49,145 nucleotides of DNA from a virus: positions 1-49,145 of IMG/VR virus record IMGVR_UViG_3300042484_002676. One strand, written 5' to 3'. The position numbers and the translations under genes are program-made. Under the pieces are notes generated by a model. The model searched no databases and was not told the origin of the DNA. It was given only the letters and a program-made list of their open reading frames with translations. Shown here piece after piece: positions 9,101-31,294 of the stretch. Position 1 is the first letter of the stretch, and each line of letters starts with the position of its first letter.

Positions 9101-10465
9101 GGAACAGGTGGAAACATTACTGGTGCTAACTTAGTATCAGCTAACTTCTTTACAGGTACATTAACAACGGCAGCACAACCAAACATCACTAGTGTTGGGT
9201 CATTATCATCATTGACCGTAACTGGTAACGCTTCAGCAGGTAATTTAAACACAGCAGGTGCAGTTGTCGCAAGCACATTAACAAGTAATGTAACAACTGG
9301 TACTGCTCCATTAACAGTATCAAGTACAACACGTGTTGGTAACTTGAATGTTGCATATGCTAACGTTAGTGATTTTATTAGCGTAACCGCCGGATCAGGA
9401 AATAACTTTATTATCTTTGCAAATGCGGCATCTGGTAACATAACAGAACTAACAAGTACAGGTTTAATTGCAAACCTATCAAATAACTCTATTACAGCAA
9501 CTACATTTGTTGGTGCATTAAGTGGCGCGGCCACTAGTGCTACTACCGCAGGAACTGTAACAACTGCGGCTCAACCAAATATAACAAGTGTTGGTACTCT
9601 TACATCATTGGGTGTAAGTGGTACTATTACTGCATCGGCATTTACAGCTAACACAGGTGTGTTTACAGGTAATGGTTCAGGATTGAGTGCTATCGCAGGC
9701 GCTAACGTAACAGGTACTGTGCCATTAGCTACTAGTGCAACTACAGCAGGTACTGTAACAACTGCGGCTCAACCAAATATAACAAGTGTTGGTACTCTCA
9801 CTGGACTAACTTCAAGTGGTGCAATAAGCATTACTAATAGTACGGCAGCAACAAGCAGAACTACTGGTGCATTAATTGTTACAGGTGGTATTGGCGCAAG
9901 TGCAAATAGCTTTGTTACGAACTTAAATGTTGCAAGTAATATTGCTTACGTCTCACCTAACGGTGCAAACACTATCAACAGTCAGATGTTGAACGGTGGA
10001 ACACTTGCATGGAGTGGTAACGCAGGACAGTTGTTCAGTATTACTGATAGCATGTCTGGAAATATATTCTCAGTCAACGATGTATCTGGTATACCAATGA
10101 TTGCAGTTGATGCGGGCGGTAATATCTACTTTGCCGCAAGTGGTGGATTTGTAGCATATGGTGTAACTACTGGTATTACTGCCGCAGGCTCTACGCAAGG
10201 TACTGCTACAGCATTGACAAGACCAATCAACGTAGTAAGTAGTGTAAGTGCAAGCACTGGCGTTATTTTACCAGCTACAGTCGCAGGTATGAGAATACTT
10301 ATATTCAATACTAGCGGAACAGCAGTAAACGTGTACCCAGCTAGTGGCGGCGCAATCAATGCATTATCAACTAATGCGGCATATTCGTTACCACCGAGTG
10401 GCCGATTAGAATTTGTTGCAGTAACAACTACACAATGGTATACTCTAAACGCAACTTATGCGTAA
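110..10465 (+). CDS. Giant repetitive tail fibre protein (3451 aa)
   Basis: This is a very long, low-complexity beta-structured fibre, probably a trimeric long tail or side fibre that carries receptor-binding tips. It is rich in Gly, Thr, Ser, Asn, Ala and Val. It is built from short units of the type TAAQPNITSVGTLTSLAVTG followed by N.SAGNL, and from GNGSGLSAI and GATNGVF units, as in many T4-like phages of aquatic bacteria. Three long modules recur at about residues 650-844, 1577-1771 and 2567-2761; each begins with a DAATKQYVDDVAQGL-type segment typical of fibre domains and continues with a conserved ILVKNEATTANNGIYV segment. The C-terminal 150 residues are unique and contain ATVAGMRILIFNTSG and a Ser/Gly/Tyr-rich end, a likely tip or cap. 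No catalytic motif is visible. The start is set by AGGA at 100-103. The LamG array follows after 13 nt, suggesting joint assembly on the virion. Confidence 0.85.
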   Translation: MSLILKQENANSVPTPSAGKGTVFLNGSDQLTIKDSAGNSTSIPTFTATGNTSVFFNDAGTLGQDATLTFNKTTDLLTVANLTVTQTLIAGDIAVSSIANGTSNVDIVGVSGNVTTSVAGVANVLVVTSTGANIAGTLNATGNANVGNLGATGIVATTLAGSLTTNSQSNITSVGTLTSLAVTGNSSAGNLSTGGVLSATGNVIGGNLTTGGALSVTGNANVGNLGTAGLITATGNVTGGNLTTGGLVSGATLSVSGTSNLGPIANVTITGGTSGQIIQTNGSGGLSFATISTSGVSNGTSSVTIPTVNGNINLTSAGNTTMVVTGTGANVTGTANVSGNLVAGNLSTGGIVTATGNVTGGNLTTGGALSVTGNANVGNLGTAGLITATGNVTGGNIITGGVVSATGNVTGANINTAGAVTASTLVSNVATGTAPLTVTSTTRVANLNVNYANVADNINVAAGTGNNFLIFANAATGNVAEITSTGLTANLSNNSITATTFVGALSGAATSATTAGTVTTAAQPNITSTGTLTSVSVSGNANIGNVGTTGVFATTLSATGNANVGNIGATGGVFTTVTGTLTTASQPNITSLGTLTSASISGNANIGNIGTAGLITATGNLGAGNIITGGVVSATGNITGGNLVTAGILSVTGTGVSSIAGNLDMTSNTITNLATPTNATDAATKQYVDDVAQGLNIHDSCNAATTGTLATISGGTVTYNNGTSGVGATLTTTGTYTTIDGVTLADGMRILVKNEATTANNGIYVRTSATVLTRAADFNTPTEMEGGDFTFVTAGTLYDNTGWVMTDPVTTVGTSPVIWVQFSGAGTYTAGTGLTLTGSVFSVNVAQPTITSTGTLTSLSVSGNANVGNIGGAAGVFTTVTGSLVTAAQPNITSLGTITSLSISGNANIGNIGTGGFITATGNIGGGNINTAGLVSATGNGTFGNLNTAGTGTASRFISNVADGTAPLTVTSTTRVSNLNVAYANVADNINVAAGTGNNFIIFASAATGNVAEITSTGLTANLSNNSITATTFVGALSGAATSATTAGTVTTAAQPNITSVGTLSSLAVTGNLSSGNANLGNAARANFFIGDGSLLTNIPIGTSLSNGNSNVSIPAANGNVNISSAGNANIAIVTGTGVNVAGTLNATGNANVGNIGATNGVFTNVSGNGSSLSSITGANVTGAVAFATTANAVAGGNVSGQVANALVAGTVTTAAQPNITSVGTLSSLAVTGNASAGNLNTAGAVVASTLTSNIATGTAPLTVTSTTRVANLNVAQANLADFISVAAGTGNNFLIFANAATGNIAELTSTGLTANLSNNSITATTFVGALSGAATSATTAGTVTTAAQPNITSVGTLSALAVTGNTTSGNVYANSGTIGASLLTGTLTTAAQPNITSTGTLTSLAVTGNISGANLTGTHYGAATGLTGIPGANVTGTVPLATSATTAGTVTTAAQPNITSVGTLSALSVTGNISAGNVSATTFTGALSGAATTAGTVTTAAQPNITSVGTLSALAVTGNTTSGNVYANSGTIGASLLTGTLTTAAQPNITSVGTLTSATVTGNVAAGNLTTTGVLSVTGTGVSSIAGNLDMTSNTIINLATPTNSSDAATKQYVDDVAQGLNIHPSCNAATQTTLATISGGTVTYNNGTAGVGATLTTTGSYTTIDGVTLSNGMRILVKNEATTANNGIYVRTSSTVLTRATDFDTAAEIAGGDFTFVTAGTLYNSTGWVQIDEVTTVGTDPIVWEQFSGAGTYQAGTGLTLTGSTFSVNASQTQVTAVGTLTGLNSSGTITAPAFTANTGVFTGNGSGLSAIAGANVTGTVSSATTAGTVTTAAQPNITSVSTSFSGLTFVANAQITMSGAGSQISGVNLVSANSFSGNGSSITGINASSIASGTLAQARLANSTLTLGNTTLTLGGTTTTVAGLSSVTSTTFVGALTGAATTAGTVTTAAQPNITSTGTLTSVSVSGNANIGNIGTGGLITATGNLNAGNIITGGIVSATGNITANFFIGNGSQLTGLNTAGISNGNSNVNIPSANGNVNISAVGNANIAVVTGTGVNVAGTLNVTGTVTVGNIISSGTGGNISGANVISANTLIASGNGTFGNINTSGAVTASTLVSNVTTGTAPLTVTSTTRVANLNVNYANVADFISVAAGTGNNFIIFANAASGNITELTSTGLIANLSNNSITATTFVGALSGAATSATTAGTVTTAAQPNITSVGTLTSLGVSGTITAPAFTANTGVFTGNGSGLSAIAGANVTGAVSFASTANAVAGGNVSGQVANALVAGTVYTAAQPNITSVGTLSSLAVTGNASAGNLNTAGAVVASTLTSNIATGTAPLTVTSTTRVSNLNVAYANVADNINVSAGTGNNFLIFANAATGNVAEITSTGLTANLSNNSITATTFVGALSGAATSATTAGTVTTAAQPNITSTGTLTGLGVNGTITGVNITANTGVFTGNGSGLSQLAGGNVTGQVGNALVAGTVYTAAQPNITSVGTLTSVAVTGNATAGNVYANSGTIGASLLTGTLTTAAQPNVTSTGTLTSLAVTGNIAAGNLTTTGILSVTGTGVSSIAGNLDMTSNTITNLATPTNSSDAATKQYVDDVAQGLNIHPSCNAATTTTLASISGGTVTYNNGTAGVGATLTTTGSYTTIDGVTLSNGMRILVKNEATTANNGIYVRTSSTVLTRADDFNTAVEIAGGDFTFVTAGTLYNSTGWVQIDDVTTVGTDPIVWEQFSGAGTYQAGTGLTLTGTTFSVNESQTQITSVGTLTGLGVNGTITGVNITANTGVFTGNGSGLSAIAGANVTGTVSSATTAGTVTTNAQPNITSVGTLTSLSVTGNVSAGNVSGTLLTGTLTTAAQPNVTSLGILTGLGVNGTVTAAAFTANTGIFTGNGSALTALNASNISSGTLAQARLANASVTLGSTALTLGSTVTTVAGLSSVTSTTFVGALTGAATTAGTVTTNAQPNITSVGTLTSLSVTGNVTAGNLIAGSGTGGNITGANLVSANFFTGTLTTAAQPNITSVGSLSSLTVTGNASAGNLNTAGAVVASTLTSNVTTGTAPLTVSSTTRVGNLNVAYANVSDFISVTAGSGNNFIIFANAASGNITELTSTGLIANLSNNSITATTFVGALSGAATSATTAGTVTTAAQPNITSVGTLTSLGVSGTITASAFTANTGVFTGNGSGLSAIAGANVTGTVPLATSATTAGTVTTAAQPNITSVGTLTGLTSSGAISITNSTAATSRTTGALIVTGGIGASANSFVTNLNVASNIAYVSPNGANTINSQMLNGGTLAWSGNAGQLFSITDSMSGNIFSVNDVSGIPMIAVDAGGNIYFAASGGFVAYGVTTGITAAGSTQGTATALTRPINVVSSVSASTGVILPATVAGMRILIFNTSGTAVNVYPASGGAINALSTNAAYSLPPSGRLEFVAVTTTQWYTLNATYA
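2057..2641 (+). repeat. Fibre module, copy 1 of 3 (about 585 bp)
   Basis: In-frame direct repeat starting at the codons for SVTGTGVSSIAGNL and ending at FSVN. It closely matches the copies near 4838 and 7808 in DNA and protein. Edges were judged by eye. Confidence 0.75.
4838..5421 (+). repeat. Fibre module, copy 2 of 3
   Basis: Second copy of the 585-bp module. It is nearest to copy 3: both carry LNIHPSCNAAT and TLYNSTGWVQID where copy 1 has LNIHDSCNAAT and TLYDNTGWVMTD. Edges by eye. Confidence 0.75.
7808..8392 (+). repeat. Fibre module, copy 3 of 3
   Basis: Third copy of the module. The differences from copy 2 are scattered and largely synonymous, which fits duplication followed by homogenisation. 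Edges by eye. Confidence 0.75.
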
Positions 10466-10478
10466 TTAGGAGTATGAA

Positions 10479-11159
10479 TTGTCAATTGCTTACAATTCAA
10501 GCATAGTAACTTCGGGGTTAGTCTTCTACGTAGATGCATCTAACCCTAGAAGTACATATAATTCTTCTTACTGGATTGATATATCCGGGTCTAATACGGT
10601 TTTGACAAAAAACGGCACACCCGCATTGACTACATTAGGCAACGCAAGTTGTTATAGATTTACTACTGCTGGCCAGTCATTCACTGGTACTTTCTTAGGA
10701 ACACAACCTACTACTGATATGACCATTGAAACATGGATATATCCTGAAGCAGAAGTGCAAGCAGATGATAGAGGGTGTTTATTATTAATGTACGGTGGAC
10801 AAGGTGGTTATATGAGTTGGAATAAATCATCATTACAACTGAGTAATTATTGGTATAGCCATCCATCAGATGGATATTGGGAAACAGGAGCCTCAGTTTC
10901 ACGCAATACATGGAATAGTTTCACCGCTGTATGGAATAATTCGGCTTCTTCAATCTATCAATGGACTAATGGAACAAAAACAACAGGGTCACCTACTGTA
11001 GGTAATGCCGCAACTGGTGCCGGCATGACTATTGGACAAGAAGGTTCAGGACGACAGTTTGCAGGTGGCATGGCGTTTATGCGAGTATACAATCGTGCGC
11101 TATCAGATAATGAAGTAACTCAAAACTACAATGCTGTTAGAGGGAGATTTGGAAGATGA
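10479..11159 (+). CDS. LamG/ConA-like virion protein 1
   Basis: First of thirteen related proteins of the Laminin_G_3 / concanavalin-like jelly-roll type, probably carbohydrate-binding virion components. The N-terminus (YNSSIVTSGLVFYVDASNPRS) and C-terminus (YNRALSDNEVTQNYNAVRG, then RFGR) carry the array signature. The start is TTG: AGGAG at 10468-10472 is 6 nt upstream, and the nearby ATG at 10473 opens a 10-codon dead end. It lacks the PGSG loop and VDDY motif seen in the others, so it is the most divergent small member. Its stop overlaps the next start (ATGA). Confidence 0.75.
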   Translation: MSIAYNSSIVTSGLVFYVDASNPRSTYNSSYWIDISGSNTVLTKNGTPALTTLGNASCYRFTTAGQSFTGTFLGTQPTTDMTIETWIYPEAEVQADDRGCLLLMYGGQGGYMSWNKSSLQLSNYWYSHPSDGYWETGASVSRNTWNSFTAVWNNSASSIYQWTNGTKTTGSPTVGNAATGAGMTIGQEGSGRQFAGGMAFMRVYNRALSDNEVTQNYNAVRGRFGR

Positions 11160-11827
11160 CCATAAGTTATAATTCAAGCATAGTAACTTCGGGGTTAGGC
11201 ATGTGTTTAGATGCAGGTAATCCCCGTAGTTATCCTGGCTCCGGGACATTATGGAATGATGTGAGTGGAAACAATAAAACCGGCACATTAGTCAACGGAC
11301 CATCATATAATTCAAGCAATGGTGGTAGTTTTGTGTTTGACGGTGTAGACGATTATGTAAATGTTAATAATTTTAACGTTAGTCATGGAACGAGTAACTT
11401 TACATATTCATGCTGGGCCTATTTGTCAGGTAAACCATCATTGGGAACAATATTTGAGAACGGATCTTGGACAAACTGTATTTTAATAAGATTTGAAGGA
11501 AGTGGCATTACAATTTACTCAATGGGTTCATATTACGGATTCTTCAGTTGGAATCCTTCATTAAGTGTTTGGAATCATCTAACATGGGTGAGAGATGGTA
11601 ATAACATATTGTTTTATATAAACGGGGTATATTCACAAGTTCTAGCGTTTGGTACTAGTGTGAATATAATTCCATCACCTGGTAATTTATTTATAGGTAC
11701 CTCACAACATGCGATATCTCAATGTTTCAATGGTAGGCTAAATTTAACTACAGTGTATACTTCTGCTCTTAGCCCATCACAAATAGAACAGAATTTTAAC
11801 GCAAGTCGCGGGAGATACGGAATATGA
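11156..11827 (+). CDS. LamG/ConA-like virion protein 2
   Basis: Typical array member: MTISYNSSIVTSGLGMCLDA, NPRSYPGSGTLWNDVSGNN, a FDGVDDYVNV strand near residue 62, and the end QNFNASRGRYGI. The middle 100 residues, where the jelly-roll loops should lie, are unlike the neighbours. No signal peptide or catalytic motif is seen. It overlaps both neighbours by 4 bp, so translation is probably coupled. Carbohydrate binding is inferred from the fold family. Confidence 0.75.
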   Translation: MTISYNSSIVTSGLGMCLDAGNPRSYPGSGTLWNDVSGNNKTGTLVNGPSYNSSNGGSFVFDGVDDYVNVNNFNVSHGTSNFTYSCWAYLSGKPSLGTIFENGSWTNCILIRFEGSGITIYSMGSYYGFFSWNPSLSVWNHLTWVRDGNNILFYINGVYSQVLAFGTSVNIIPSPGNLFIGTSQHAISQCFNGRLNLTTVYTSALSPSQIEQNFNASRGRYGI

Positions 11828-12468
11828 TAAACTACAATTACAATATTCCTACTTCAGGTTTAGTACAATGTGTGGATGCCGCTAACCCCCGCAGTTATCC
11901 TGGATCAGGAGCTACATGGTTTGATGTTACTGGGAATGGTCACCACATCACATTAGGGGCAGGGGTAACCTACCAAAGTGGTGTAGGTAGAGGGGTGTTG
12001 CAATTTGCAAAAGATGCTACTGGTTATGGTACTAATTCTACATTGAATTTGTCCGCTAGTAATAATACAGTTATTTCGTTTGTTAGAAAATTAGTAGACG
12101 GAGATTCCGGAAGAACAATAACTGCATTGAATAATAATTGGCTTATGGCTCATCACGATACTACATATGGTGATTATTATGCTGAAGGTTGGGTCAATGA
12201 TGTAGGCAGTCCAACATCTGACACTATATGGAGAATGTTTACTGCCACTGGAAATGTTAGTACTGACACATGGGCAACTTATGCAAATGAAACATTGTTA
12301 GCAAGTAATAGTAACGGTAGTCAAGGACCAAATGGTTGGAATTTAAATAATCAATATGGACAAAACTCTACTTGTCAAATTGCAAATTTATTAGTATGGA
12401 ATAGAGTTCTAACGACAGTAGAAATCTCACAAGTATTCAACGCATACCGTGGGAGATTTGGTATATGA
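11824..12468 (+). CDS. LamG/ConA-like virion protein 3
   Basis: The shortest member (214 aa). It keeps the NPRSYPGSGATWFDVTGNG loop and the QVFNAYRGRFGI end, but the FDGVDDY strand is replaced by a LQFAKDATGYG segment. A His-rich stretch (WLMAHHDTTYGDYY) sits mid-protein. ATGA overlaps occur on both sides. Probably a virion lectin like the rest of the array. Confidence 0.72.
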   Translation: MINYNYNIPTSGLVQCVDAANPRSYPGSGATWFDVTGNGHHITLGAGVTYQSGVGRGVLQFAKDATGYGTNSTLNLSASNNTVISFVRKLVDGDSGRTITALNNNWLMAHHDTTYGDYYAEGWVNDVGSPTSDTIWRMFTATGNVSTDTWATYANETLLASNSNGSQGPNGWNLNNQYGQNSTCQIANLLVWNRVLTTVEISQVFNAYRGRFGI

Positions 12469-13130
12469 GTGTTGTAGCAAATCCTAATATTGTTACATCA
12501 GGTCTAATATTATGTTTAGACGCTGCTAATCCAAAATCTTATCCCGGTACCGGAACATCTTGGTTTGATGTAAGTGGTAACAAAGCACTTGGAACTCTCA
12601 CTAATGGCGTCAGTTATAATAGTACTAATTTAGGTATACTTACCTTTGACGGAGTGGATGACAGGGTCAATGTTGTAAATACTATTCCGCCTTTAAGTAA
12701 TTTAACTATTGAATTATTTTTACAAACATCAGTGGTTGACGGTACACAGAATATATTTTTGGATCAATTTTTTAGTTTAAGATATGAAATTAGCGGTAAT
12801 AAATTTAACATACACTTAGGAAATGGTTCGGCATGGGCTTATACGACACTTCTCAGCACCACTACTGTTGTTGCAAATACCTGGTATCAAACAGCTTGGA
12901 CTTGGAATGGATCAACCGCGGTTATGTATGTGAATGGCGTGGCAGAAAATTCATTATCTAGTGGAGCAGCCTCATCTACAACTGGAAATATAACATTAGG
13001 ACAACACACCCCCGACACAGCTTATGCTTGGGCAGGCAGTATGGGAAGTGTAAAAATTTACAACACCGCATTGACCTCTGATCAGGTATTGCAAAACTTC
13101 AACGCAACTCGCGGGAGATTTGGTATATGA
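12465..13130 (+). CDS. LamG/ConA-like virion protein 4
   Basis: Array member with the MSVVANPNIVTSGLILCLDA type of N-terminus, also used by members 9 and 11. It has NPKSYPGTGTSWFDVSGN, FDGVDDRVNV, a WNGSTAVMYVNG strand near residue 150 typical of LamG folds, and a QNFNATRGRFGI end. It is coupled to both neighbours by ATGA. Confidence 0.75.
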   Translation: MSVVANPNIVTSGLILCLDAANPKSYPGTGTSWFDVSGNKALGTLTNGVSYNSTNLGILTFDGVDDRVNVVNTIPPLSNLTIELFLQTSVVDGTQNIFLDQFFSLRYEISGNKFNIHLGNGSAWAYTTLLSTTTVVANTWYQTAWTWNGSTAVMYVNGVAENSLSSGAASSTTGNITLGQHTPDTAYAWAGSMGSVKIYNTALTSDQVLQNFNATRGRFGI

Positions 13131-13837
13131 TAAACTACAATCCTAGCATTGTGACAACTGGTTTGACTGTATTACTAGATTCCACTAACCCTAGAAGCTA
13201 TCCCGGCACCGGTAACATTTGGTATGATATTAGTGGAAATAATAATCACGGTACTATGACTAATTTTACTGGACCGTCAGCTGGAAGTACAAGTGGTTAT
13301 GATACTAATACTAAATGGATGATGTTTGATAGACATTTAGGAGGATCAGATGCAACGGTTAACAATGTTGTTAATATAACAAACAGTCCCACACTACAAG
13401 ATTGTGTGTGTCAAAACGGCATGACTGTTTCGATGTGGTTAAAAATAACTACTGCCGTGTGTACTGCAATGACTAAAATGGATGGCGCTTGGGAAATTTA
13501 TTACTGTTCTCCGTTAGTGTTTAGAACTCAGGGTACCGGCGGCAATGATGGAACAACATCATATAATAGTTCGACATATGTAGATGTTTGGACAAACATA
13601 GTTGCTACTCATGACGGAACAACACGAAAAATGTACTTTAATGGTGTTGAAATATATAGTGACGCTAACCCAGTAACTAGTCAAACGATAACTAATCCAG
13701 TAGCTATAGGCGGTTACTCTAGTGGCGTTTATGCTGTGATTGGTGCTCTGCCTTATTATAGTTTGTACAATAGAGCTATAACTTCAACTGAAGTGTTGCA
13801 AAACTTTAATGCTATTAGAGGACGTTTTGGTATCTAA
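13127..13837 (+). CDS. LamG/ConA-like virion protein 5
   Basis: Array member of 236 aa (INYNPSIVTTGLTVLLDS; NPRSYPGTGNIWYDISGNN; ends QNFNAIRGRFGI). It holds more cysteines than its neighbours (a DCVCQNG segment plus two single Cys). The HDGTTRKMYFNGVEIY strand is the usual LamG hairpin. It closes the first block of five overlapping genes; a 56-nt gap with a late promoter follows. Confidence 0.75.
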   Translation: MINYNPSIVTTGLTVLLDSTNPRSYPGTGNIWYDISGNNNHGTMTNFTGPSAGSTSGYDTNTKWMMFDRHLGGSDATVNNVVNITNSPTLQDCVCQNGMTVSMWLKITTAVCTAMTKMDGAWEIYYCSPLVFRTQGTGGNDGTTSYNSSTYVDVWTNIVATHDGTTRKMYFNGVEIYSDANPVTSQTITNPVAIGGYSSGVYAVIGALPYYSLYNRAITSTEVLQNFNAIRGRFGI

Positions 13838-13866
13838 TTCTTCAAAATATTAAGCAGGGACATAAG

Positions 13867-13874
13867 CATAAATA
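13867..13874 (+). promoter_or_regulatory. T4-type late promoter inside the LamG array
   Basis: CATAAATA is followed by an AAGGGG ribosome binding site at 13881-13886 and ATG at 13894. It splits the array into two transcription units, although read-through from upstream is likely. Confidence 0.55.
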
Positions 13875-13893
13875 CTAGTTAAGGGGAATAATT

Positions 13894-14160
13894 ATGCAAT
13901 TAAATGAGATTAATGGATTGACTTATGTTATACTAAGTGTAACTGAAATATCACAATTAGATTTTTCACAAATAGAACAAACGTCAGAAGAAACACTAAG
14001 GCGTAGTGTAGATGATACACAAACAATTGTTAAATGGATAACTGATGCGGGTGTGCCTAGTTGTATATCATCGTTGACTACTAAAGGTCCATACATGACA
14101 CACGATGAGGCATTAGAATTAATGTCAACACCTGAGTGGACTCAACCAATGCCAATGTAA
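13894..14160 (+). CDS. Small unknown protein within the LamG array (88 aa)
   Basis: Not recognised. It is a short acidic protein (MQLNEINGLTYVILSVTEIS at the start, ending in WTQPMPM) with no LamG signature, membrane segment or cysteine pair. A good ribosome binding site and its own late promoter make it a real gene. Its placement between members 5 and 6 suggests a virion accessory or chaperone role; this is guesswork from position. Confidence 0.65.
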   Translation: MQLNEINGLTYVILSVTEISQLDFSQIEQTSEETLRRSVDDTQTIVKWITDAGVPSCISSLTTKGPYMTHDEALELMSTPEWTQPMPM

Positions 14161-14167
14161 AACTAAA

Positions 14168-14830
14168 ATGGCACTACAACACTCACCGTCAATTGTAACA
14201 TCCGGACTATCAATGTGCCTTGACGCGGGAAATCCACGTAGTTATCCAGGCTCGGGATCTACCTGGTATAATGCAATAAGTGGGACTAACACAACATTAA
14301 ACAATGGTCCTACGTATACGTCAGGTACTTCTGGATATTTTACATTTGATGGAGTAGATGATTATGGACAATCAACTTCAAATATTTTAACAGGGGGTGT
14401 TTCAACACCATTTACACTGGAAGCAGTAGCAATGACTACCACCGCATCTAGTTATCAAACTGTGCTAGGTACCGCCGGAACCTATAGACAAATTGGATTT
14501 TTAAGTAATAGTTTTTATTGGGGGGGCAATGGAGGAGGCGGTAATCTATTTGTATCCGGAGGGTCGATATCAGCTAATACATGGTATCATTTGGTATTTA
14601 CATTTGACGGTACAACAGGCTATGGTTATTTAAATGGTTCACAAACTACCGGTAACATAGGTAGTAACGGAGGCACAATTGGGGCAACGTTATTATCAAC
14701 CTATAACGCCGGTAGTGCCTTAGAAAGATTGACAGGTAGAATTGCTCTAGCAAGAGTGTACTCCATTGCATTATCTAGTACACAAGTACTACAAAACTTC
14801 AACTCATTAAGAGGAAGATACGGAATATGA
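14168..14830 (+). CDS. LamG/ConA-like virion protein 6
   Basis: Array member with the ALQHSPSIVTSGLSMCLDA type N-terminus shared with members 8 and 10. It has NPRSYPGSGSTWYNAISG, FDGVDDYGQS, a Gly-rich run (WGGNGGGGNLF) near residue 120, a FDGTTGYGYLNG hairpin and a QNFNSLRGRYGI end. It begins 7 nt after the 88-codon gene and overlaps member 7 by ATGA. Confidence 0.75.
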   Translation: MALQHSPSIVTSGLSMCLDAGNPRSYPGSGSTWYNAISGTNTTLNNGPTYTSGTSGYFTFDGVDDYGQSTSNILTGGVSTPFTLEAVAMTTTASSYQTVLGTAGTYRQIGFLSNSFYWGGNGGGGNLFVSGGSISANTWYHLVFTFDGTTGYGYLNGSQTTGNIGSNGGTIGATLLSTYNAGSALERLTGRIALARVYSIALSSTQVLQNFNSLRGRYGI

Positions 14831-15492
14831 CCATAAATTACAATCCATCTGTTGTAACATCTGGACTAACCATATGCTTAGACGCCGCTAACCCACGTAG
14901 TTATCCGGGTAGTGGCACTGCTTGGCGTGATGTATCTAGTGCCGGTAACAATGGCACTTTGGTTAATGGGCCGACGTATAGTTCATCTAACGGTGGTACT
15001 ATTACGTTTGACGGAATAGATGACTATTGTTCAACCTCTGCTACTGTAGAGGCTGCAACAAATTCGAACTTACAAACGATTTCAGGATGGTTAATTGGAA
15101 ACGGAGCATTGTTTGGTTCTAACGCAGGCGGAATTGGACAATTTCATTTACGAGCAAGTTTAAGTGGTACTACATTAACGTACAGAGTATCTTATTATGG
15201 CGGTATAGGTGGAGAAATCGATGATACTGCTACTGTAACTCCTAACTCAGTAAACAACATAGTAATAGTAAAAACAGCCGCTGAAAAATATGATGTTTAC
15301 TTCAATGCTGTTAAAGTAATGAATCAAGTAACTAAAAAGGCAACAGTTAGTACTAGTTTTTATCCAGGACTTTACTATACAGGGTCGTACAATGCAGGTA
15401 CTGTATCCAACTATTTAATTTACAATAGAACACTTTCTTCAGATGAAATAACTCAAAATTATAACGCATATCGTGGAAGGTACGGCATATAA
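14827..15492 (+). CDS. LamG/ConA-like virion protein 7
   Basis: Array member (TINYNPSVVTSGLTICLDA; NPRSYPGSGTAWRDVSSAG; FDGIDDYCST; ends QNYNAYRGRYGI). Its middle contains a VKTAAEKYDVYFNAVKV strand pair in place of the usual FDGT..YxNG hairpin. The last base of its TAA is the first base of the next ATG. Confidence 0.75.
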   Translation: MTINYNPSVVTSGLTICLDAANPRSYPGSGTAWRDVSSAGNNGTLVNGPTYSSSNGGTITFDGIDDYCSTSATVEAATNSNLQTISGWLIGNGALFGSNAGGIGQFHLRASLSGTTLTYRVSYYGGIGGEIDDTATVTPNSVNNIVIVKTAAEKYDVYFNAVKVMNQVTKKATVSTSFYPGLYYTGSYNAGTVSNYLIYNRTLSSDEITQNYNAYRGRYGI

Positions 15493-16199
15493 TGGCACTA
15501 CAACATTCTCCCTCAATTGTAACATCTGGACTATCGATGTGTGTGGATGCCGGCAGTCCCCGTAGTTATCCAGGTTCTGGAACAAGTTGGAATGATGTTA
15601 GCGGAACTGGTAATACCGGAACACTAGTTAACGGACCTACGTATACTAGTGGCGTTAATGGTTATTTTACGTTTGACGGAGTGGATGATCGAGTTACATT
15701 TACCAATACTAATGGTTTTGGTACCGGAGGAGTTGCACCACAAGCTACTATGTCAATATGGGCAAATATTACACGTAATAATGCATTTCAACAAATTGCA
15801 GGTTTTAGAGATGACGTGGATTATAATTTCTTTTTCTTACTATTAGATAGTGGTGGCGCAACAGTTAATACTGAGGCAAGACTTGGTACAACTGCTGGTT
15901 TAGCATATGATATTAATGTTAATTTTATCTCTTACTTTGGAACATGGACTAATATTGTATTTGTAGCAAATACTAACCGATCAGATTTGTATTTTAACGG
16001 AATTCTTGCAGGCTCAAACACAAATGTCGCCGGCAACTTTGGAGCTGATTCTGGACAATTTTGTATAGGTCGTCACCCGGCCACGGCAGCATACCCTACT
16101 GTAGGAAAGATTTCAAATGTACAATTCTACAAGCGAGCATTAACTGCGGCTGAAATTTTACAAAATTTCAACGCATTGCGTGGAAGGTACGGACTATGA
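15492..16199 (+). CDS. LamG/ConA-like virion protein 8
   Basis: Array member of 235 aa (ALQHSPSIVTSGLSMCVDA; SPRSYPGSGTSWNDVSGTG; FDGVDDRVTF; ends QNFNALRGRYGL). The middle holds a Phe-rich strand (DVDYNFFFLLLDS) and a NRSDLYFNGILAG hairpin. Its first 60 codons are close to those of members 6 and 10, suggesting duplication with replacement of the centre. Confidence 0.75.
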   Translation: MALQHSPSIVTSGLSMCVDAGSPRSYPGSGTSWNDVSGTGNTGTLVNGPTYTSGVNGYFTFDGVDDRVTFTNTNGFGTGGVAPQATMSIWANITRNNAFQQIAGFRDDVDYNFFFLLLDSGGATVNTEARLGTTAGLAYDINVNFISYFGTWTNIVFVANTNRSDLYFNGILAGSNTNVAGNFGADSGQFCIGRHPATAAYPTVGKISNVQFYKRALTAAEILQNFNALRGRYGL

Positions 16200-16882
16200 G
16201 TGTTTTTGCTAATCCAAACATACCGCAACCTAATCTAGTATTTGCCATGGATGCATCTAATACTAGATGCTATCCTGGTTCAGGCACCACTATGTTTGAT
16301 GGTGTTACCAGAAACAATCTTACAATAGCAAACGCGGCATATACTGCCGGGCCAATACCTTATTTTAATTTTGACGGTGTTGATGATTACATGTATAACT
16401 TTTCTACAAATAATCCATTAACTAGTAATGCTGCCACAGTTATAATATGGGTGTATCCTAGCACAACACAACCAGATGGTAACTATAGTGGCATGTTTGC
16501 TTTAGGTACAAAAGGTTGTGCTTTAGGTAGCGGTAATGGTCAAACGCTATTATTCAGTATGCAAAGTAATAGAACATTAACTATGGCTAAATGGTGTGAT
16601 GATAGTTTCAGTAGTATAGCACCAGCGGCTGATACATGGTCACAAGTATCACTAGTAAAAAATGGAGCCAGCACACGTTTTGGTATTAATACAACATTTC
16701 AAAATGCTACTAATACAGGTACACAAAGTTTTGTAGGGACTAATTTTACAGTAGGATGTACTGATAATCCAGGTAGATATTTTAATGGTAGAATCGCAGT
16801 AGTTTTATTGTATAGTTCAGCACTGACAGACGATGAGATCACACAAACTTATACTGCTTATCGTAGTAGATTTGGAGTATAA
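16196..16882 (+). CDS. LamG/ConA-like virion protein 9
   Basis: Array member with a divergent start (MSVFANPNIPQPNLVFAMDA) and TRCYPGSGTTMFDG in place of PRSYPGSG. FDGVDDYMYNF is kept, and the end is TYTAYRSRFGV rather than NFNAxRGRYG. A WSQVSLVKNGASTRFGIN strand occupies the hairpin position. A 2-nt gap separates it from member 10. Confidence 0.72.
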   Translation: MSVFANPNIPQPNLVFAMDASNTRCYPGSGTTMFDGVTRNNLTIANAAYTAGPIPYFNFDGVDDYMYNFSTNNPLTSNAATVIIWVYPSTTQPDGNYSGMFALGTKGCALGSGNGQTLLFSMQSNRTLTMAKWCDDSFSSIAPAADTWSQVSLVKNGASTRFGINTTFQNATNTGTQSFVGTNFTVGCTDNPGRYFNGRIAVVLLYSSALTDDEITQTYTAYRSRFGV

Positions 16883-16884
16883 AC

Positions 16885-17568
16885 ATGGCACTACAACATT
16901 CACCGTCGATTGTAACATCTGGGCTTGTGTTATGCTTAGACGCCGCAAGTCCACGTAGCTATCCCGGATCAGGTACTGCATGGTATGATTCAAGTGGTAA
17001 CGGTAATACCGGGACGCTAGTTAACGGACCTACATACAATAGTGCTAACTTAGGTAGTATTGTATTCGATGGTGTAGATGATTATGCTTCTATTGCTAAT
17101 AGTGCAGTATTGAGACCTGCTAATCAACTGACCGTTTGCATGTGGGCTAAAGCAATTAGTATTACTGCAGGATGGAATGCTCTATTTGGGCAAAGTCCAT
17201 ACACTGGAGCGTACTTAATATTTTTGGAAACAGGTGGAACATTAATACGAGCATTACATAATGTTAACGGAACGGAATACAGATGTAACACAAATCAAGC
17301 TATTTCTACATCTGTTTACACTCATATTGTTTTTACATTCAGTACAGGAGACGCAATACGAAGTTATTTTAATGGAGTGGCAAGTACTACTACTGCATTA
17401 CCTGCAGGAACATTTACGTACAACACTTCTAATCCATTTTTGATAGGATATCCAGGCGCTAATTACTTCAATGGTAATATTTCAACTGCACAGATTTACA
17501 ACCGAGCACTTAGTGCTACCGAAGTTACGCAGAATTTTAATGCATATCGAGGGAGATACGGAGTATGA
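16885..17568 (+). CDS. LamG/ConA-like virion protein 10
   Basis: Array member (ALQHSPSIVTSGLVLCLDA; SPRSYPGSGTAWYDSSGNG; FDGVDDYASI; ends QNFNAYRGRYGV). The first 75 residues nearly match member 8, and the centre differs (SVYTHIVFTFSTGD, IRSYFNGVAST). ATGA overlap to member 11. Confidence 0.75.
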   Translation: MALQHSPSIVTSGLVLCLDAASPRSYPGSGTAWYDSSGNGNTGTLVNGPTYNSANLGSIVFDGVDDYASIANSAVLRPANQLTVCMWAKAISITAGWNALFGQSPYTGAYLIFLETGGTLIRALHNVNGTEYRCNTNQAISTSVYTHIVFTFSTGDAIRSYFNGVASTTTALPAGTFTYNTSNPFLIGYPGANYFNGNISTAQIYNRALSATEVTQNFNAYRGRYGV

Positions 17569-18218
17569 CAGTAGTAGCAAATCCTAATATTGTATCTACT
17601 GGATTAGTTTTTAGTGTAGATGCAGGAAACCCCCGTAGTTATCCAGGTAGTGGCACATCTTGGTATCAACTCACTGGAGTTACTAATACAGGTGTGTTAT
17701 TTAACGGACCTACTTATAACAGTGGCAATTTAGGTTCAATATCATTTGATGGTGTAGATGACTATGTTGATTTTTCAACTGACTTGGGAACCATGTCTAA
17801 CTATACTATAATGTATTGGGCTAAACGAGATGCTGAAAACAGAATGCCGATCGCCGGTAGATTAAACACTAATTTTTATTGGTATGGTGACAACAGTTGG
17901 AGATATGTTCATGGTGGTGTGGGCGGAGAATATTATTACAGTAAGCCAACATCAATACCATTAGGTACGTGGGGTTGTTACTGTGTAGTATATAACGGTT
18001 CTAATGTATCAATATACCGACAAGGTGTATATCAAGGTCAGCAATCAACAACTGGTACCGCAGATTGGTCTCAAGGATTAACATTAGGCTGGTGGGCTGC
18101 TCGTGGTGGGTATGCTTGGCAAGGATTAATATCTAATGTTATGATGTATAATACAGCATTGACTGCTGATCAAGTTACACAGAATTTTAATGCAATACGT
18201 GGAAGGTATGGTATATGA
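17565..18218 (+). CDS. LamG/ConA-like virion protein 11
   Basis: Array member (TVVANPNIVSTGLVFSVDA; NPRSYPGSGTSWYQLTG; FDGVDDYVDF; ends QNFNAIRGRYGI). Its centre is unusually rich in Trp and Tyr (FYWYGDNSWRYVHGG, LGWWAARGGYAW), which fits a sugar-stacking surface; that is inference. ATGA overlaps on both sides. Confidence 0.75.
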   Translation: MTVVANPNIVSTGLVFSVDAGNPRSYPGSGTSWYQLTGVTNTGVLFNGPTYNSGNLGSISFDGVDDYVDFSTDLGTMSNYTIMYWAKRDAENRMPIAGRLNTNFYWYGDNSWRYVHGGVGGEYYYSKPTSIPLGTWGCYCVVYNGSNVSIYRQGVYQGQQSTTGTADWSQGLTLGWWAARGGYAWQGLISNVMMYNTALTADQVTQNFNAIRGRYGI

Positions 18219-18937
18219 GTGTAGATTCAGGACCAAACACAGTTGACAACGGTTTAATTTTAAACATTGACGCTGCCAATCTTAGAAGTTGGCCTGGCTC
18301 TGGTACAACTTGGTATGACGTAAGTGGACAAACTAATACTGCTTATATGTATGGTTCTGTACCTACCTCAAGTGATGGTGGCACCTGTTTTGATTTTGCC
18401 ACTGTTAGTGGAGCATCCTCAGGAGCCGCCACGTTAGGGTTTACGTTTACGAGTAATATGATTCCGTTAACAGGAAGTTTCACCTTTTCTACTTGGATTA
18501 AAAATCCACCAACAAGTGTTGGTCAATGCGGAATGTTCAGTAACGCCGGCGGAGCCAATGGATATAGATTTGGAATTGGTAAAGATGCTTGTTATGTATT
18601 GATGTCCGGAGCTAATGCCGAAGGATATTCAGAGCCGCAAATAGGTTTTAATTCTACACTGGACTCAACATCTTGGTATAATGTATGTATGATTTTTGAT
18701 AGGTCTAACGCTACTCCTCAGTGGAATCTTTATCTAAATGGAGTATTTCAGAGAACAACTAATATGGGAACCCCTCAGAACGTTGCAATGGCCAATGTGG
18801 CCCCAGGTCTAGTAAGAAGTGCCTGCTGTGGTTTGTACACCGGCAAGATAGCAACATTTGTCGCATACAATCGAGCATTATCTGCTGACGAGATAACACA
18901 GAACTACAATGCATTACGAGGGAGATATGGTGTATGA
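18215..18937 (+). CDS. LamG/ConA-like virion protein 12
   Basis: Array member of 240 aa with the MSVDSGPNTVDNGLILNIDA N-terminus. It has LRSWPGSGTTWYDVSGQT, lacks the FDGVDDY strand, and ends QNYNALRGRYGV. A NLYLNGVFQRTTNMG hairpin is visible near residue 180. ATGA overlap to the large last member. Confidence 0.74.
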   Translation: MSVDSGPNTVDNGLILNIDAANLRSWPGSGTTWYDVSGQTNTAYMYGSVPTSSDGGTCFDFATVSGASSGAATLGFTFTSNMIPLTGSFTFSTWIKNPPTSVGQCGMFSNAGGANGYRFGIGKDACYVLMSGANAEGYSEPQIGFNSTLDSTSWYNVCMIFDRSNATPQWNLYLNGVFQRTTNMGTPQNVAMANVAPGLVRSACCGLYTGKIATFVAYNRALSADEITQNYNALRGRYGV

Positions 18938-20259
18938 GCGTAAATTCAGGTCCTTATTTTGCAAGTAATAGTAATCTAGCATTGATGTTAGATGCAACTA
19001 ATCCTCAGTCTAATGTAGGCAATCGTTCTATCATCAATTGGAACAATTGGACTAATGGTTCTGGTGGAGTTCCGGGATATAATCAAAACGGACAGACGGC
19101 AGAAAACGAAAGAATTTCTGCAACTGACCCATGGGGCAATACTGCTACAGTATGGGAAGCACGCCCGTTGGCACAAACAAATGATGACGGTGGCTGGAAT
19201 ACAGATTCGTTCGCTATTGATAATACACAATTGTATCGATTCTCAGTATGGGTGCGTAGAACTTCAGACACATCAGGTGGTACTTTTTATTTAGGAACAG
19301 GTAGTAACGGTGACGGTGTTCGTAGAACAGGCGACGGAACAACAGAAGGTAATCCGTATTGGGAATGTAGTGGCACGGGTATATTAGCACAAAACACCTG
19401 GTACTTGTTCGTAGGTCATATATATCCAGCTAATACTACCTTTACTGGTAGAAACCCTACTACAGGATATTACACTATCAACGGTAGAGCAGGTGACGTT
19501 AACGGATGTAATATTGGTCCCGGAGACTTAAAGTGGAGCTACAATTCAACTACTAGTCTTCATAGAACATATTTGTATTACTGCACAGACAGTACAACAC
19601 GATTACAGTTCTATCAACCAAGAGTAGATTTGGTTGACGGTACTGAACCTAGTATACAAGAGTTATTACAAAACGCAGGTAATACTTGGTATGACGTTAG
19701 CGGTAACAATAACAATTGTACATTTTATAATTTGCCAACCACCTATTCAGGTTATTATACATTCAATGGATCATCAAATTATGGCACTGTTATCAATAAT
19801 AGTACATTGAATTTTTCATCAGCACAAACATTACAAATTGTAATGCGTCACAGTTATACATCTGGTAGAAAAAATCCATGGGATCAAGCATATGCCGGCT
19901 ATGGTACTTGGACACATGAACAGGGTGATAGCATAAGTCAGTACTTTGGTAATGGTGGCGCAAATAACGAGCCTTATATCGGAGTTAGTAGTCCTAATAC
20001 GCCTAGGAGTGTTTGGAACGTGATGTGTGCAACAAGAAGTACTAGCGAGTTTAAGTGGTATATCAACGGAGCGTTAAGCAGTACTACTGCCAACCCATAT
20101 GGCACATTAGCAAATACACCAGCAAACATTACGATTGGTAACGGATATGCAGGATATTGGCAAGGTGATATGGCTATGGTAACTGCATATACTAGAGCCT
20201 TATCAGATAATGAAGTAATGCAAAACTTCAATGCTATTCGCGGGAGATATGGTATATGA
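18934..20259 (+). CDS. LamG/ConA-like virion protein 13 with an inserted domain (441 aa)
   Basis: Last and largest member, twice the usual length. The array N-terminus (NSNLALMLDATNPQSN) is interrupted after residue 30 by about 210 extra residues with a CBM-like beta-sandwich look (LYRFSVWVRRTSDTSGGTFY; LQFYQPRVDL). The normal sequence resumes at NTWYDVSGNNNNCTFYNL near residue 247 and runs to the standard end QNFNAIRGRYGI. The insertion falls at the SYPGSG loop, a surface loop in the other members, so the second domain could be displayed without disturbing the fold. Both domains are probably carbohydrate-binding; this is inferred from fold type. A TGA/ATG overlap at the 3' end opens only 14 codons before a stop. 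Confidence 0.75.
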   Translation: MSVNSGPYFASNSNLALMLDATNPQSNVGNRSIINWNNWTNGSGGVPGYNQNGQTAENERISATDPWGNTATVWEARPLAQTNDDGGWNTDSFAIDNTQLYRFSVWVRRTSDTSGGTFYLGTGSNGDGVRRTGDGTTEGNPYWECSGTGILAQNTWYLFVGHIYPANTTFTGRNPTTGYYTINGRAGDVNGCNIGPGDLKWSYNSTTSLHRTYLYYCTDSTTRLQFYQPRVDLVDGTEPSIQELLQNAGNTWYDVSGNNNNCTFYNLPTTYSGYYTFNGSSNYGTVINNSTLNFSSAQTLQIVMRHSYTSGRKNPWDQAYAGYGTWTHEQGDSISQYFGNGGANNEPYIGVSSPNTPRSVWNVMCATRSTSEFKWYINGALSSTTANPYGTLANTPANITIGNGYAGYWQGDMAMVTAYTRALSDNEVMQNFNAIRGRYGI

Positions 20260-20268
20260 GTACCTCAA

Positions 20269-20748
20269 ATGGTAAACTATACGGAGAATACGACGGATGA
20301 TAAGTACACTGTGATTAATGTATTTCAACTCAACTACGATGCCAGATTAATAAGCTGGTGTGATTTAAGAAAATCTATAGAGAACGCAGACGTTGCTACC
20401 AAATGTGTAGAGATAGACAAATGGTGGCAACACGCACCTTTAGTATCCCATTATCTGCATCCAAACGATAAGCAATCTTGGCCTAATCCATGGGAAATGT
20501 TAGTAGACAATCAATATTGTTCTATCACCCGCGGTTTGGGTATGATATATACACTATTACTATCGGGCATAGATGATGTTGACTTTTGTATGGCAATAGA
20601 CGATAATAGTGAAGAAGTAGCTATAGTCGTGGTTGACAGCGCAAAATATGTGTTGAATTACTGGCCCAATTCGGTACTAAGTAATAATCTACAAGATTTT
20701 AAAGTAGTCCAGAAGATAGATATTACAGACATAAAAACAAAACTATAA
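20269..20748 (+). CDS. Unknown phage protein upstream of nrdA (159 aa)
   Basis: Not recognised with certainty. It has a Trp-rich N-terminal half (ISWCDLRKS, DKWWQHAPLV), a SWPNPWEMLVDNQYCSITRG segment and a helical LGMIYTLLLSG segment, then strands ending in IDITDIKTKL. No signal peptide is present. The Cys (YCS) followed by an aliphatic helix recalls small cysteine-protease or transglutaminase folds, but a His/Asp partner cannot be assigned. It lies 9 nt before the nrdA ribosome binding region and is probably co-transcribed with nrdAB. Confidence 0.6.
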   Translation: MVNYTENTTDDKYTVINVFQLNYDARLISWCDLRKSIENADVATKCVEIDKWWQHAPLVSHYLHPNDKQSWPNPWEMLVDNQYCSITRGLGMIYTLLLSGIDDVDFCMAIDDNSEEVAIVVVDSAKYVLNYWPNSVLSNNLQDFKVVQKIDITDIKTKL

Positions 20749-20758: not shown

Positions 20759-23077
20759 ATGATTATTAACGTTACCAAAAGAAGCGGTAAAAAAGAGCCA
20801 TTAGATTTAGAAAAATGGCAAGCACAAGTGGCAAAAATTTGTAAGGGAATAGCGGATGTTAGCCCATCAATGATTGAAATTAAATCGCAATTGCATTTTT
20901 ACGATGGTATTACAACTAAACAAATTGATGGAATTACATTACGTGCTATTGTCGATTTAATCGATGTAGAGAACAATAGTGATGTAGGACATACTAACTA
21001 TCAATACGTAGCAGGGAAACAGCGTATTTCTATGTTGCGTAAAGATGTATATGGCTCATATGAAGTTCCACATCTTTACGAAATAGTTAAAAAGAATGTA
21101 GCCACTGGTCTTTATACCAATGAACTATTATCTTGGTATAGTGAAGAAGATTGGAACAAGATGAATGATATGTTGGATCATTCTAAAGATGAACAATATA
21201 GTTATGCCGCCATTGAACAACTGATTGAAAAATATCTAGTTAAGAATCGTTCAACGAAAGAAATATATGAAACTCCTCAAATCAGATACATGGTGGCAGC
21301 CGCTACAGTCTTTCATAGTGAAGAACCTAATAACGCCCGTATGCGTTATATCAAAGAATATTATAACGCAGCCAGTGATGGGTTGTTCACTCTTGCTACT
21401 CCTGTGCTTGCAGGCTTGGGTACTCCAACAAAGCAATTTTCATCCTGCGTTCTTATTCGCTCCGACGACGATTTGGATTCTATTTTTGCTAGCGGAGAAA
21501 TGATGGCTAAGTATGCTAGCAAACGTGCTGGCATTGGTTTAGAGATTGGACGACTACGTCCACTAGGCAGTCCCATTAGGGGCGGTGAGATTATGCACAC
21601 CGGCATGATTCCGTTCTTAAAGAAGTGGTTCGGTGACCTAAGAAGTTGCAGTCAGGGAGGTATCCGCAATGCAAGTGCTACTGTTTTTTATCCTATTTGG
21701 CATCATCAGTTTGATGATCTTATTGTACTTAAGAACAACCAAGGAACAGAAGAAACCCGAGTCCGTCATATGGATTATGGGGTTGTGCTTAGTGCTTTCT
21801 TCTGGAGACGATTTAAAAACAAAGAACAAATAACATTCTTTGATCCGAACGAAGTTCCCGATCTATACGAAGCATTCTATCAAAATACAGAACGATTTGA
21901 AGAACTTTATGTTAAGTATGAAAAGCGTAAAGACTTGCGTACTAAGACCATGAGTGCTGAAGAAGTATTCAAGAGTGGTATACTAAAAGAACGCACTGAT
22001 ACAGGACGTATCTATCTAGTATTCATTGACAACGTGATGAATCAAGGTCCGTTTGATCCAGAGTATCATACAATTTACCAGAGTAACCTTTGCTGTGAAA
22101 TCCTATTACCTACTAAGTCTTTTAAACGTCTTGATGATCCTAATGGTCGCATTGCTCTATGCACGTTGGGTAGTATTAACTGGGGAGCTTTCAGGAACCC
22201 AGAAGATATGCGTAGGGCTTGCCGTATACTTCACCGCAGTCTTAACAATATCCTTGATTACCAAGACTTCTTGAGCATCCAATCCAAGTTAAGCAATGAC
22301 GAGATTCGTCCATTAGGCATAGGTATCACTAACCTTGCATACTGGCATGCCAAGCGAAATTTCAAATACGGTGAGAAAGATGCTCTAGCAGATATTAAGA
22401 GTTGGATGGAACATCAGTCATTCTATCTAACTGAAGCAAGCGTTGAGCTTGCTAAGGAACGGGGAAAGTGTTTAGGCAGTGACCATACTCGCTATGGACA
22501 AGGTATATTCCCTTGGGAACTTAGAGCCAATGGTGTGAATGAACTAACAAACTTTGCTACAGAATTAGATTGGGAAACATTACGTAGTCAAATGAAAGAA
22601 CATGGAGTACGTAATGCTACACAAATGGCTGTTGCCCCAGTTGAGTCAAGTAGTGTTGTTATCAATTCTACTAATGGTATTGAAATGCCAATGAGCTTAA
22701 TTTCTGTAAAAGAAAGTAAAGCAGGAAGTTTTGTACAAGTAGTTCCCGAATATCATAAGTTGAAAAACAAATATCAAATGATGTGGGATCAAAAAGATTG
22801 TGATGGTTACCTAAAGACAGCGGCGGTGATTGCAGCCTATGTTGACCAAAGTATAAGTACTAATACGTTTTATAATCCAGCACACTTCCCTGAGCGTAAA
22901 GTTCCAACAACATTGATTGCTAAGAACTTGATGCAGTCGCACTATTGGGGACTAAAGACATTCTACTACAGCTTGATTAACAAAGCAGGTAGTAAGAGCC
23001 AAGATGAAACTGTATTAGATTTGCCAAGCGGCTTTAATGATATGGATGAAGAAGATTGCGAAGCTTGTAAGCTTTAA
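20759..23077 (+). CDS. nrdA: Ribonucleoside-diphosphate reductase class Ia, alpha subunit
   Basis: Large subunit of aerobic ribonucleotide reductase, which makes deoxynucleotides for phage DNA synthesis in the cytoplasm. At 772 aa it is full length (E. coli NrdA is 761). An N-terminal ATP-cone-like region covers residues 1-95. The catalytic set is present: Cys230 (FSSCVL) and Cys468 (LCTLGSINW) form the redox pair, and Asn443, Cys445 and Glu447 (SNLCCEI) are the radical-site residues. The C-terminal tail ends EDCEACKL, the swinging dithiol that glutaredoxin or thioredoxin re-reduces. Residue 446 is Cys where E. coli has Leu, next to the thiyl-radical Cys. nrdB follows 9 nt downstream, and a phage glutaredoxin lies 1.8 kb on. 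Confidence 0.97.
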   Translation: MIINVTKRSGKKEPLDLEKWQAQVAKICKGIADVSPSMIEIKSQLHFYDGITTKQIDGITLRAIVDLIDVENNSDVGHTNYQYVAGKQRISMLRKDVYGSYEVPHLYEIVKKNVATGLYTNELLSWYSEEDWNKMNDMLDHSKDEQYSYAAIEQLIEKYLVKNRSTKEIYETPQIRYMVAAATVFHSEEPNNARMRYIKEYYNAASDGLFTLATPVLAGLGTPTKQFSSCVLIRSDDDLDSIFASGEMMAKYASKRAGIGLEIGRLRPLGSPIRGGEIMHTGMIPFLKKWFGDLRSCSQGGIRNASATVFYPIWHHQFDDLIVLKNNQGTEETRVRHMDYGVVLSAFFWRRFKNKEQITFFDPNEVPDLYEAFYQNTERFEELYVKYEKRKDLRTKTMSAEEVFKSGILKERTDTGRIYLVFIDNVMNQGPFDPEYHTIYQSNLCCEILLPTKSFKRLDDPNGRIALCTLGSINWGAFRNPEDMRRACRILHRSLNNILDYQDFLSIQSKLSNDEIRPLGIGITNLAYWHAKRNFKYGEKDALADIKSWMEHQSFYLTEASVELAKERGKCLGSDHTRYGQGIFPWELRANGVNELTNFATELDWETLRSQMKEHGVRNATQMAVAPVESSSVVINSTNGIEMPMSLISVKESKAGSFVQVVPEYHKLKNKYQMMWDQKDCDGYLKTAAVIAAYVDQSISTNTFYNPAHFPERKVPTTLIAKNLMQSHYWGLKTFYYSLINKAGSKSQDETVLDLPSGFNDMDEEDCEACKL

Positions 23078-30913: not shown

Positions 30914-31294
30914 ATGGCTTATAGCGCACAAGTAGTAGACCACTACGAAAATCCAAGAAACGTCGGTAGTTTTGCAAAAGACGATGACGATGTAGGTACC
31001 GGTATGGTCGGAGCCCCGGCATGCGGGGACGTAATGAAATTACAAATTAAAGTAGATAAAGAAACTGGAGTAATAACAGATGCCAAATTTAAAACATATG
31101 GGTGCGGGTCGGCTATTGCTAGCTCAAGTCTTGTCACTGAATGGGTCAAGGGGAAAACACTTGACCAAGCTGCCGAGCTCCGAAACAGTCAAATCGCAGA
31201 GGAACTTGCACTCCCCCCAGTCAAAATCCATTGCTCAATCCTTGCGGAAGACGCCATCAAAGCCGCAGTAAACGATTATAAACAGAGGCACTAA
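30914..31294 (+). CDS. iscU: Iron-sulfur cluster scaffold IscU
   Basis: Complete IscU scaffold (126 aa), which assembles [2Fe-2S] clusters from IscS sulfur and hands them to client proteins. The three ligand cysteines are present: Cys37 (APACGD, with Asp39), Cys64 (YGCGSA) and Cys107 (IHCS, with His106). The LPPVK motif (100-104) that HscA recognises is intact, so it could use the host chaperone system. The gene is clearly richer in GC than its surroundings and the protein is very close to proteobacterial IscU, which suggests fairly recent capture from a host. AGGAG lies 8 nt before the start. Iron enzymes are numerous in this window (RNR, Rieske, radical SAM). Confidence 0.95.
   Translation: MAYSAQVVDHYENPRNVGSFAKDDDDVGTGMVGAPACGDVMKLQIKVDKETGVITDAKFKTYGCGSAIASSSLVTEWVKGKTLDQAAELRNSQIAEELALPPVKIHCSILAEDAIKAAVNDYKQRH

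Follow-up and report, generated by a model that had tools for sequence, protein, structure and literature searches.

Jelly-roll proteins of the Laminin_G_3/LamG family (PF13385) are known from phages, and those of the S-PM2 p176 type, together with relatives in the PHROG and BFVD collections, share the fold, the end signatures and the fibre or structural context of thirteen LamG-like genes that we analysed in an IMG/VR virus contig of 49,145 bases (IMGVR_UViG_3300042484_002676; the whole stretch is referred to as the window). In the S-PM2 p176-type proteins the domains are fused in large polypeptides, whereas the window carries them as 13 single-domain genes with overlapping stop and start codons. 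Synechococcus phage S-SKS1 (AGH31518/AGH31517) resembles the window in that a LamG protein with the same signature is directly followed by a homologue of an 88-amino-acid (aa) protein, here termed gp88; its LamG domains, however, are fused into a single protein of 960 aa. Flavobacterium phage vB_FspM_immuto (QQO92137/QQO92138) has, like the window, adjacent single-LamG genes directly after a 'putative tail fiber-like protein', but it is a different phage with two such genes only, separated by a gap of 1 nucleotide (nt) instead of overlapping. Laminin G3 domains are also noted with tail fibres in a passage of a jumbo-phage review (PMC7824862). Full-text literature searches that combined LamG or laminin G with terms for phages, virions, tail fibres, tandem arrangement or mass spectrometry gave no paper that, by its title or the start of its abstract, dealt with tandem single-domain LamG arrays, and megablast gave no relative among isolates.

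The thirteen homologous LamG-like open reading frames (ORFs) that the original prediction had placed at 10479-20259 are all present, on the + strand (Table 1). Genes 1-12 encode proteins of 214-240 aa, and gene 13 one of 441 aa with about 230 additional residues near the N-terminus. One member used as query against the record matched 13 places without internal stops (E 4e-141 to 7e-13), and their homology is therefore far beyond chance; Laminin_G_3 scored above the Pfam cut-off in seven of eight members tested, the gene at 11824-12468 being the miss. The members are neighbours, as predicted, although the tandem series is broken once by the unrelated gp88 ORF (13894-14160). Upstream lies a 3451-aa repetitive fibre-like ORF, and downstream g159, nrdA, nrdB and an endolysin-like gene; the fibre gene and g159-nrdA borders are common to the window and related arrays, and here as in relatives the array directly follows the repetitive fibre-like gene.

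We read the array as a set of virion adhesins with a stable concanavalin-like domain each, non-redundant and co-translated, in a fast-changing tail-fibre locus, with a probability of roughly 60%; this reading is the best one because the LamG fold, the fibre locus and the annotation of relatives as virion structural proteins coincide. Each gene would supply one different, evolutionarily stable binding domain; the codons of the C-terminal helix (..RGRYG) would serve as the Shine-Dalgarno (SD) sequence of the next gene and, with the overlapping stop and start, chain the translation of the series; whole genes would be gained and lost along a partly conserved order, with redundant copies dropped; and the virion would display the proteins side by side, each binding another surface glycan, which would provide avidity or a broad target range.

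The proposed chaining of translation is reflected in the junctions. Of the 12 places in the window where one LamG gene follows another, nine have the ATGA overlap and one has TAATG; at the other two the neighbours are separated, once by a 2-nt gap and once by the 88-aa gene. The codons of the R-G-R-[YF]-G motif read GGGAGA or GGAAGG about 10 bases before the next start. Codon choice was scored in 269 LamG ORFs deduplicated on the last 60 residues (53 of the 269 lack the motif and were left unscored). The second (last) arginine of the motif is encoded by AGR in 148 of 155 coupled versus 32 of 61 uncoupled genes (Fisher p 6e-13), and the glycine by GGR in 133/149 versus 23/47 (p 3e-8); the first arginine, which lies outside the SD and served as control, is AGR in 60/146 coupled and 22/52 uncoupled genes (p 0.87). 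Because the relatedness of the sequences makes the Fisher p too small, a comparison per locus is safer: among 38 loci with both classes, AGR was commoner in the coupled genes in 21, rarer in two and equal in 15. All 12 coupled genes of the window have AGR, and the single uncoupled one (gene 5) has CGT. As judged from codon usage, the RGRYG codons double as the SD of the next gene. A stop/start overlap with an SD inside the upstream gene is present, and ATGA pairs with an internal SD are known to be coupled by termination-reinitiation (PMC6728339). The set is probably made together, since almost every gene end carries the SD of the next gene and, mostly, a stop/start overlap. The end of gene 13 also carries an SD-ATGA motif (20256-20290), the ATG of which begins an out-of-frame ORF, 13 nt ahead of where the next gene starts; it is perhaps the trace of a lost following array member.

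The conserved ends had been predicted to attach exchangeable lectins to the virion. The C-terminal form QNFNAxRGRYG is found strictly in five and in relaxed form in all 13 genes; the strict N-terminal pattern matches only four of 13, and SYPGSG is absent from the N-terminus of the first and last genes. The three predicted N-terminal types do recur as leaders, but with SVxSGP the recurring leader families number at least four. The 12 short members have a mean identity of 45% in the leader, 55% in residues 13-45, 25% in the middle and 50% in the last 30 residues. An AlphaFold2 model of gene 10 (90 aligned proteins; mean predicted local distance difference test score, pLDDT, 90.7) is a jelly-roll beta-sandwich with the LVLCLD stretch as its first strand and QNFNAxRGRYG in a terminal helix (residues 211-225), and its leader is predicted as a coil of lower confidence. 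Concanavalin A (ConA)-like domains of the PDB match the model with Foldseek E down to 3e-11 and VIA-align Z of 21-23; the best matches include domain 4 of the arabinanase AbnA, solved with bound arabino-oligosaccharide. Many of the top structural rows are clostridial neurotoxin receptor-binding domains, which, on the model, we read as the common ConA-like fold and nothing more. The PDB relatives cover residues ~10-220 or more of the model, and in most rows the first 9-12 residues are unmatched. Given that alignment range, the shared ends are, according to the model, parts of the LamG fold, namely an N-terminal strand and a C-terminal helix. Both signatures also stand inside fused proteins, with a complete unit mid-protein in S-SKS1 and a unit that begins mid-protein in S-PM2, which removes the main support for the ends as free attachment tags; furthermore, the C-terminal motif carries the ribosome-binding site of the next gene.

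Dedicated attachment ends with a central region of about 100 residues exchanged between genes as a cassette would account for the fact that paralogues within an array resemble each other more at the ends than in the middle; to this extent the predicted pattern of fixed ends and variable centres holds. Across arrays, however, the centres are conserved together with their own ends. Centres recur in the arrays of other phages at about 60-90% identity, and genes 1, 5, 7, 11, 12 and 13 have middles with 72-87% identity to their best match in another array; identical centres in unrelated phages had been named as evidence against the original prediction, and the matches found for these six of 13 genes supply this in part, though they lie mostly within a related phage group. 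Shared-centre pairs were defined in a ten-array set by a centre at least 60% identical, with the gene-13 type excluded: the N region is 82.8% identical in the 37 such pairs versus 43.2% in 1654 other cross-array pairs, and the leader 57.6% versus 48.2%, with leaders at most 50% alike in 20 of the 37. Sliding DNA identity shows orthologues alike over the whole body and falling mainly near the start. Since the N region and the C end travel with the centre, the body including both ends (residue 13 to the end) is the evolutionary unit, and the leader is loosely linked to it. In eight body types the nonsynonymous divergence (dN) of the middle is 0.00-0.34 while the synonymous divergence (dS) is mostly >1 or saturated; as far as these rates indicate, the centres are under purifying selection and not a hypervariable insert.

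Centre-shuffling proved rare: among 208 proteins, middles match in 88 pairs, versus two pairs with ends alike but middles different. A few pairs do have near-identical N regions and unrelated middles, such as two adjacent LamG genes in locus L102 (labels beginning with L or G are our handles for other loci and records): at 10700-12092 their DNA is 92% identical in the N region and 84% in the C end, with no detectable similarity in the middle. This pair is the best candidate for a true centre replacement. With bodies travelling as units and ends that are fold elements found mid-protein elsewhere, attachment ends with exchangeable centres are an unlikely explanation of the array.

An address tag may instead be sought in the leader, i.e. 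the first ~12 residues: bodies would be fixed, and a few leaders tied to the junction type would control the site or the level of use of each lectin. More than one leader family occurs in seven of the 12 shared body types, and the ATGA junction is found with none of 28 ALxHSP leaders versus 20 of 25 (S/T)I[NSA]Y leaders; this link is partly trivial, because the overlap forces codon 2 to begin with A. Within an array, leader identity is a little higher than expected (50.3% versus 45.2%; 19 of 1000 permutations as high), an effect too weak for strong array-specific leader 'dialects', which were rejected. The leaders are short, orthologous pairs still have slightly more similar ones (the 57.6% versus 48.2% given above), and the leader is modelled as the lower-confidence coil. 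We consider an exchangeable leader tag improbable, though somewhat less so than attachment ends.

The adhesin set would be non-redundant, and this was observed in ten arrays with shared locus context, whose 70 scored genes comprise 12 shared body types and 32 singletons. None of 247 within-array centre pairs reaches 50% identity (maximum 36%), and 50 of 2168 between-array pairs reach at least 60%; for the zero within arrays, label permutation gave P 0.0028. Among all 334 ORFs without deduplication, no within-locus pair exceeds 52.5% identity (local alignments of at least 100 aa), and on this ground we reject the idea that arrays grew large by recent tandem duplication. Shared body types stand in the same order in 24 of 29 comparisons; free shuffling of gene order is therefore rejected, and the kept order together with the lack of alike within-locus pairs fits gain and loss along a scaffold. 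The window array exceeds all those of the fetched loci, the largest of which, L060, has 12 genes and lies on a partial contig.

The site as a whole turns over between close relatives. The 249.6-kb contig of L009 has 84.6% DNA identity to the window over the g159-nrdA-nrdB flank and 74% over the first 200 fibre residues, and at the site has, instead of the array, only about 1.5 kb occupied by other genes; its seven LamG matches all lie in one 1741-aa ORF without the signature ends. Some LamG match is found in eight of 13 records examined, with nearly full-model matches only in G004 (one gene), G012 and G013, which are the three of the 13 with separate signature-bearing LamG genes. In L012, from a related phage, three ORFs (2987-8872) with similar glycine-rich starts (ITGGVSFSGGG, IEGGWTFGGG, ITGGFSMAGGG) take the place of a LamG array; by these starts they are a further paralogous series at this site.

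In other systems, switching is frequent among tandem families of binding proteins, and the original prediction had raised switchable binding as a possibility. The array would then be a storage set, with its genes activated singly through inversion or recombination, or with hypermutation by a diversity-generating retroelement (DGR). All genes are, however, intact, mostly overlapping and on one strand, and their centres are under the purifying selection described above. Inverted repeats flanking switchable segments were not found, there being two incidental inverted-repeat pairs, inside genes only, and an invertible or phase-variable array is disfavoured accordingly; nor does the array have an excess of terminator-like sequences. 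No near-identical DGR template repeat was seen, the multi-copy repeat families being the paralogous ends, with full-length identity of no more than 80%, and no reverse transcriptase was among the window ORFs put to Pfam, which were a subset of the ORFs of a fragmentary record. There is thus no sign of switching, and we regard a storage set as very improbable.

The small gene within the series is linked to LamG genes well beyond the window. Homologues of gp88 occur in many arrays and in S-SKS1, where one adjoins the LamG protein. In a scan of viral contigs with gp88 only (best 80 of at least 536 confirmed loci; some of the contigs had also been fetched by LamG), 80 of 83 gp88 ORFs shared their locus with a LamG gene, and for 73 of the 83 the closest gene of 120 aa or longer on the upstream side was LamG. 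A gp88 match is present in seven of eight array records (the miss is G017, the record of L075), and six related array-less records gave no match. Searches of gp88 gave no Pfam or PHROG match and no usable PDB match (best E 0.6; model pLDDT 78.8). From its genomic company, gp88 is a candidate for a dedicated LamG partner or assembly factor.

We infer virion display and glycan binding of the adhesin set from the fold, the position and the annotation of relatives: the S-PM2 homologue is labelled 'virion structural protein' and the immuto pair 'structural protein'. At least 558 relatives were confirmed in viral contigs by two signature patterns, versus 12 in 84,980 bacterial and archaeal species genomes. 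Proteomics underlies some of the cyanophage 'virion structural protein' labels, in a source whose relevant part does not name the S-PM2 homologue (PMC3037559), and for the immuto phages no proteomics source was located in the literature. Several points weigh against an adhesin set. The basis of the 'structural' database labels of the relatives could not be read, and a concanavalin-like fold does not always make a protein a lectin. The codon signature reflects selection or shared ancestry rather than measured coupling, and related sequences inflate its Fisher significance; the protein motif is retained in 61 of 76 uncoupled genes and hence has a role in the protein too, the ribosome-binding role explaining only part of its conservation. 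Joint translation is no proof that all members are displayed simultaneously, and array lengths are not a random sample, as the arrays were supplied by LamG searches.

With the virion location deduced in this way, and with LamG domains present in many extracellular proteins, the array proteins might instead be produced within the infected cell or on its surface, say as a surface coat that blocks superinfection or as secreted lectins. However, the opening residues have, by eye, no hydrophobic signal-peptide-like stretch, the array adjoins the fibre gene, and the relatives are annotated as structural. This explanation is quite unlikely, more so than attachment ends, though far less so than a storage set.

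Discussion of phage host range usually centres on one fibre tip or a few. The adhesin set may be extended, tentatively and at less than even odds, to the view that a LamG gene is a self-propagating expression cassette: with a C-terminal helix that is both a fold element and a ribosome-binding site for any next gene, an inserted LamG gene would automatically be expressed and serve its successor. Large aquatic phages might thus build a co-displayed, non-redundant 'quiver' of lectins from a shared pool, with gp88 as dedicated assembly partner and the whole set swapped at one locus between close relatives. The coupled codon and motif design would give a simple account of how arrays gain and lose members without loss of expression. 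One phage seemingly produces 13 distinct, stable binding domains as a set while a close relative has none at that site; if displayed together, they would make a natural multi-lectin particle.

Outside the array, eight fatty-acid desaturase (PF00487) genes lie in two clusters at 34366-37182 (+) and 42935-46749 (-); the L009 record has four such genes, the L075 record two, and seven other related records none. A metabolic region (30914-42945) comprises genes for NifU-like (30914), AhpC/TSA (31670), carboxymuconolactone decarboxylase (32221), QueC-like (37212), Rieske (38126, -), cupin (40209, -) and B12-binding radical SAM (41485) proteins.

Table 1. Features of the LamG locus and its borders in the window.
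Feature	Position	Strand	Remarks
Fibre-like gene	110-10465	+	3451-aa repetitive protein; C-terminal part conserved before other LamG arrays
LamG gene 1	10479-11159	+	TTG start; body 87% identical to post-fibre gene in L075
LamG gene 2	11156-11827	+	ATGA overlap with gene 1
LamG gene 3	11824-12468	+	Most divergent; no Pfam match at E 0.01
LamG gene 4	12465-13130	+	VANP leader
LamG gene 5	13127-13837	+	Uncoupled to any next LamG gene; key Arg codon CGT, not AGR
gp88	13894-14160	+	88 aa; family nearly always beside LamG genes
LamG gene 6	14168-14830	+	ALQHSP leader
LamG gene 7	14827-15492	+	Centre 80% identical in L044
LamG gene 8	15492-16199	+	ALQHSP leader; TAATG junction
LamG gene 9	16196-16882	+	
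LamG gene 10	16885-17568	+	Predicted structure, pLDDT 90.7
LamG gene 11	17565-18218	+	Centre 82-86% identical in L021, L050 and L052 (81% in L043), with other leaders
LamG gene 12	18215-18937	+	Centre 72% identical in L045
LamG gene 13	18934-20259	+	441 aa; full-length 82-84% identity in L020, L021 and L043, at or next to array end
g159	20269-20748	+	159-aa conserved gene; right border of variable locus
nrdA	20759-23077		Follows g159
nrdB	23087-24187		Follows nrdA

Two non-phage or general systems offer further comparison. The Streptomyces umbrella toxin lectins (UmbA) are, by analogy, like the array in that one particle is served by several diversified lectins, laminin-G lectins being one of the families, and the cited passages propose this lectin diversity as bet hedging (PMC13274773). 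That system is non-homologous and concerns a toxin particle, not a phage, and the passages on it do not show a tandem overlapping lectin array (PMC13274773). Gene pairs translated by termination-reinitiation share with the array the ATGA overlaps and an SD motif inside the upstream gene, but are pairs of different genes (PMC6728339); the window, in contrast, holds a paralogous array in which one conserved protein motif appears to act as the SD for nearly every next gene.

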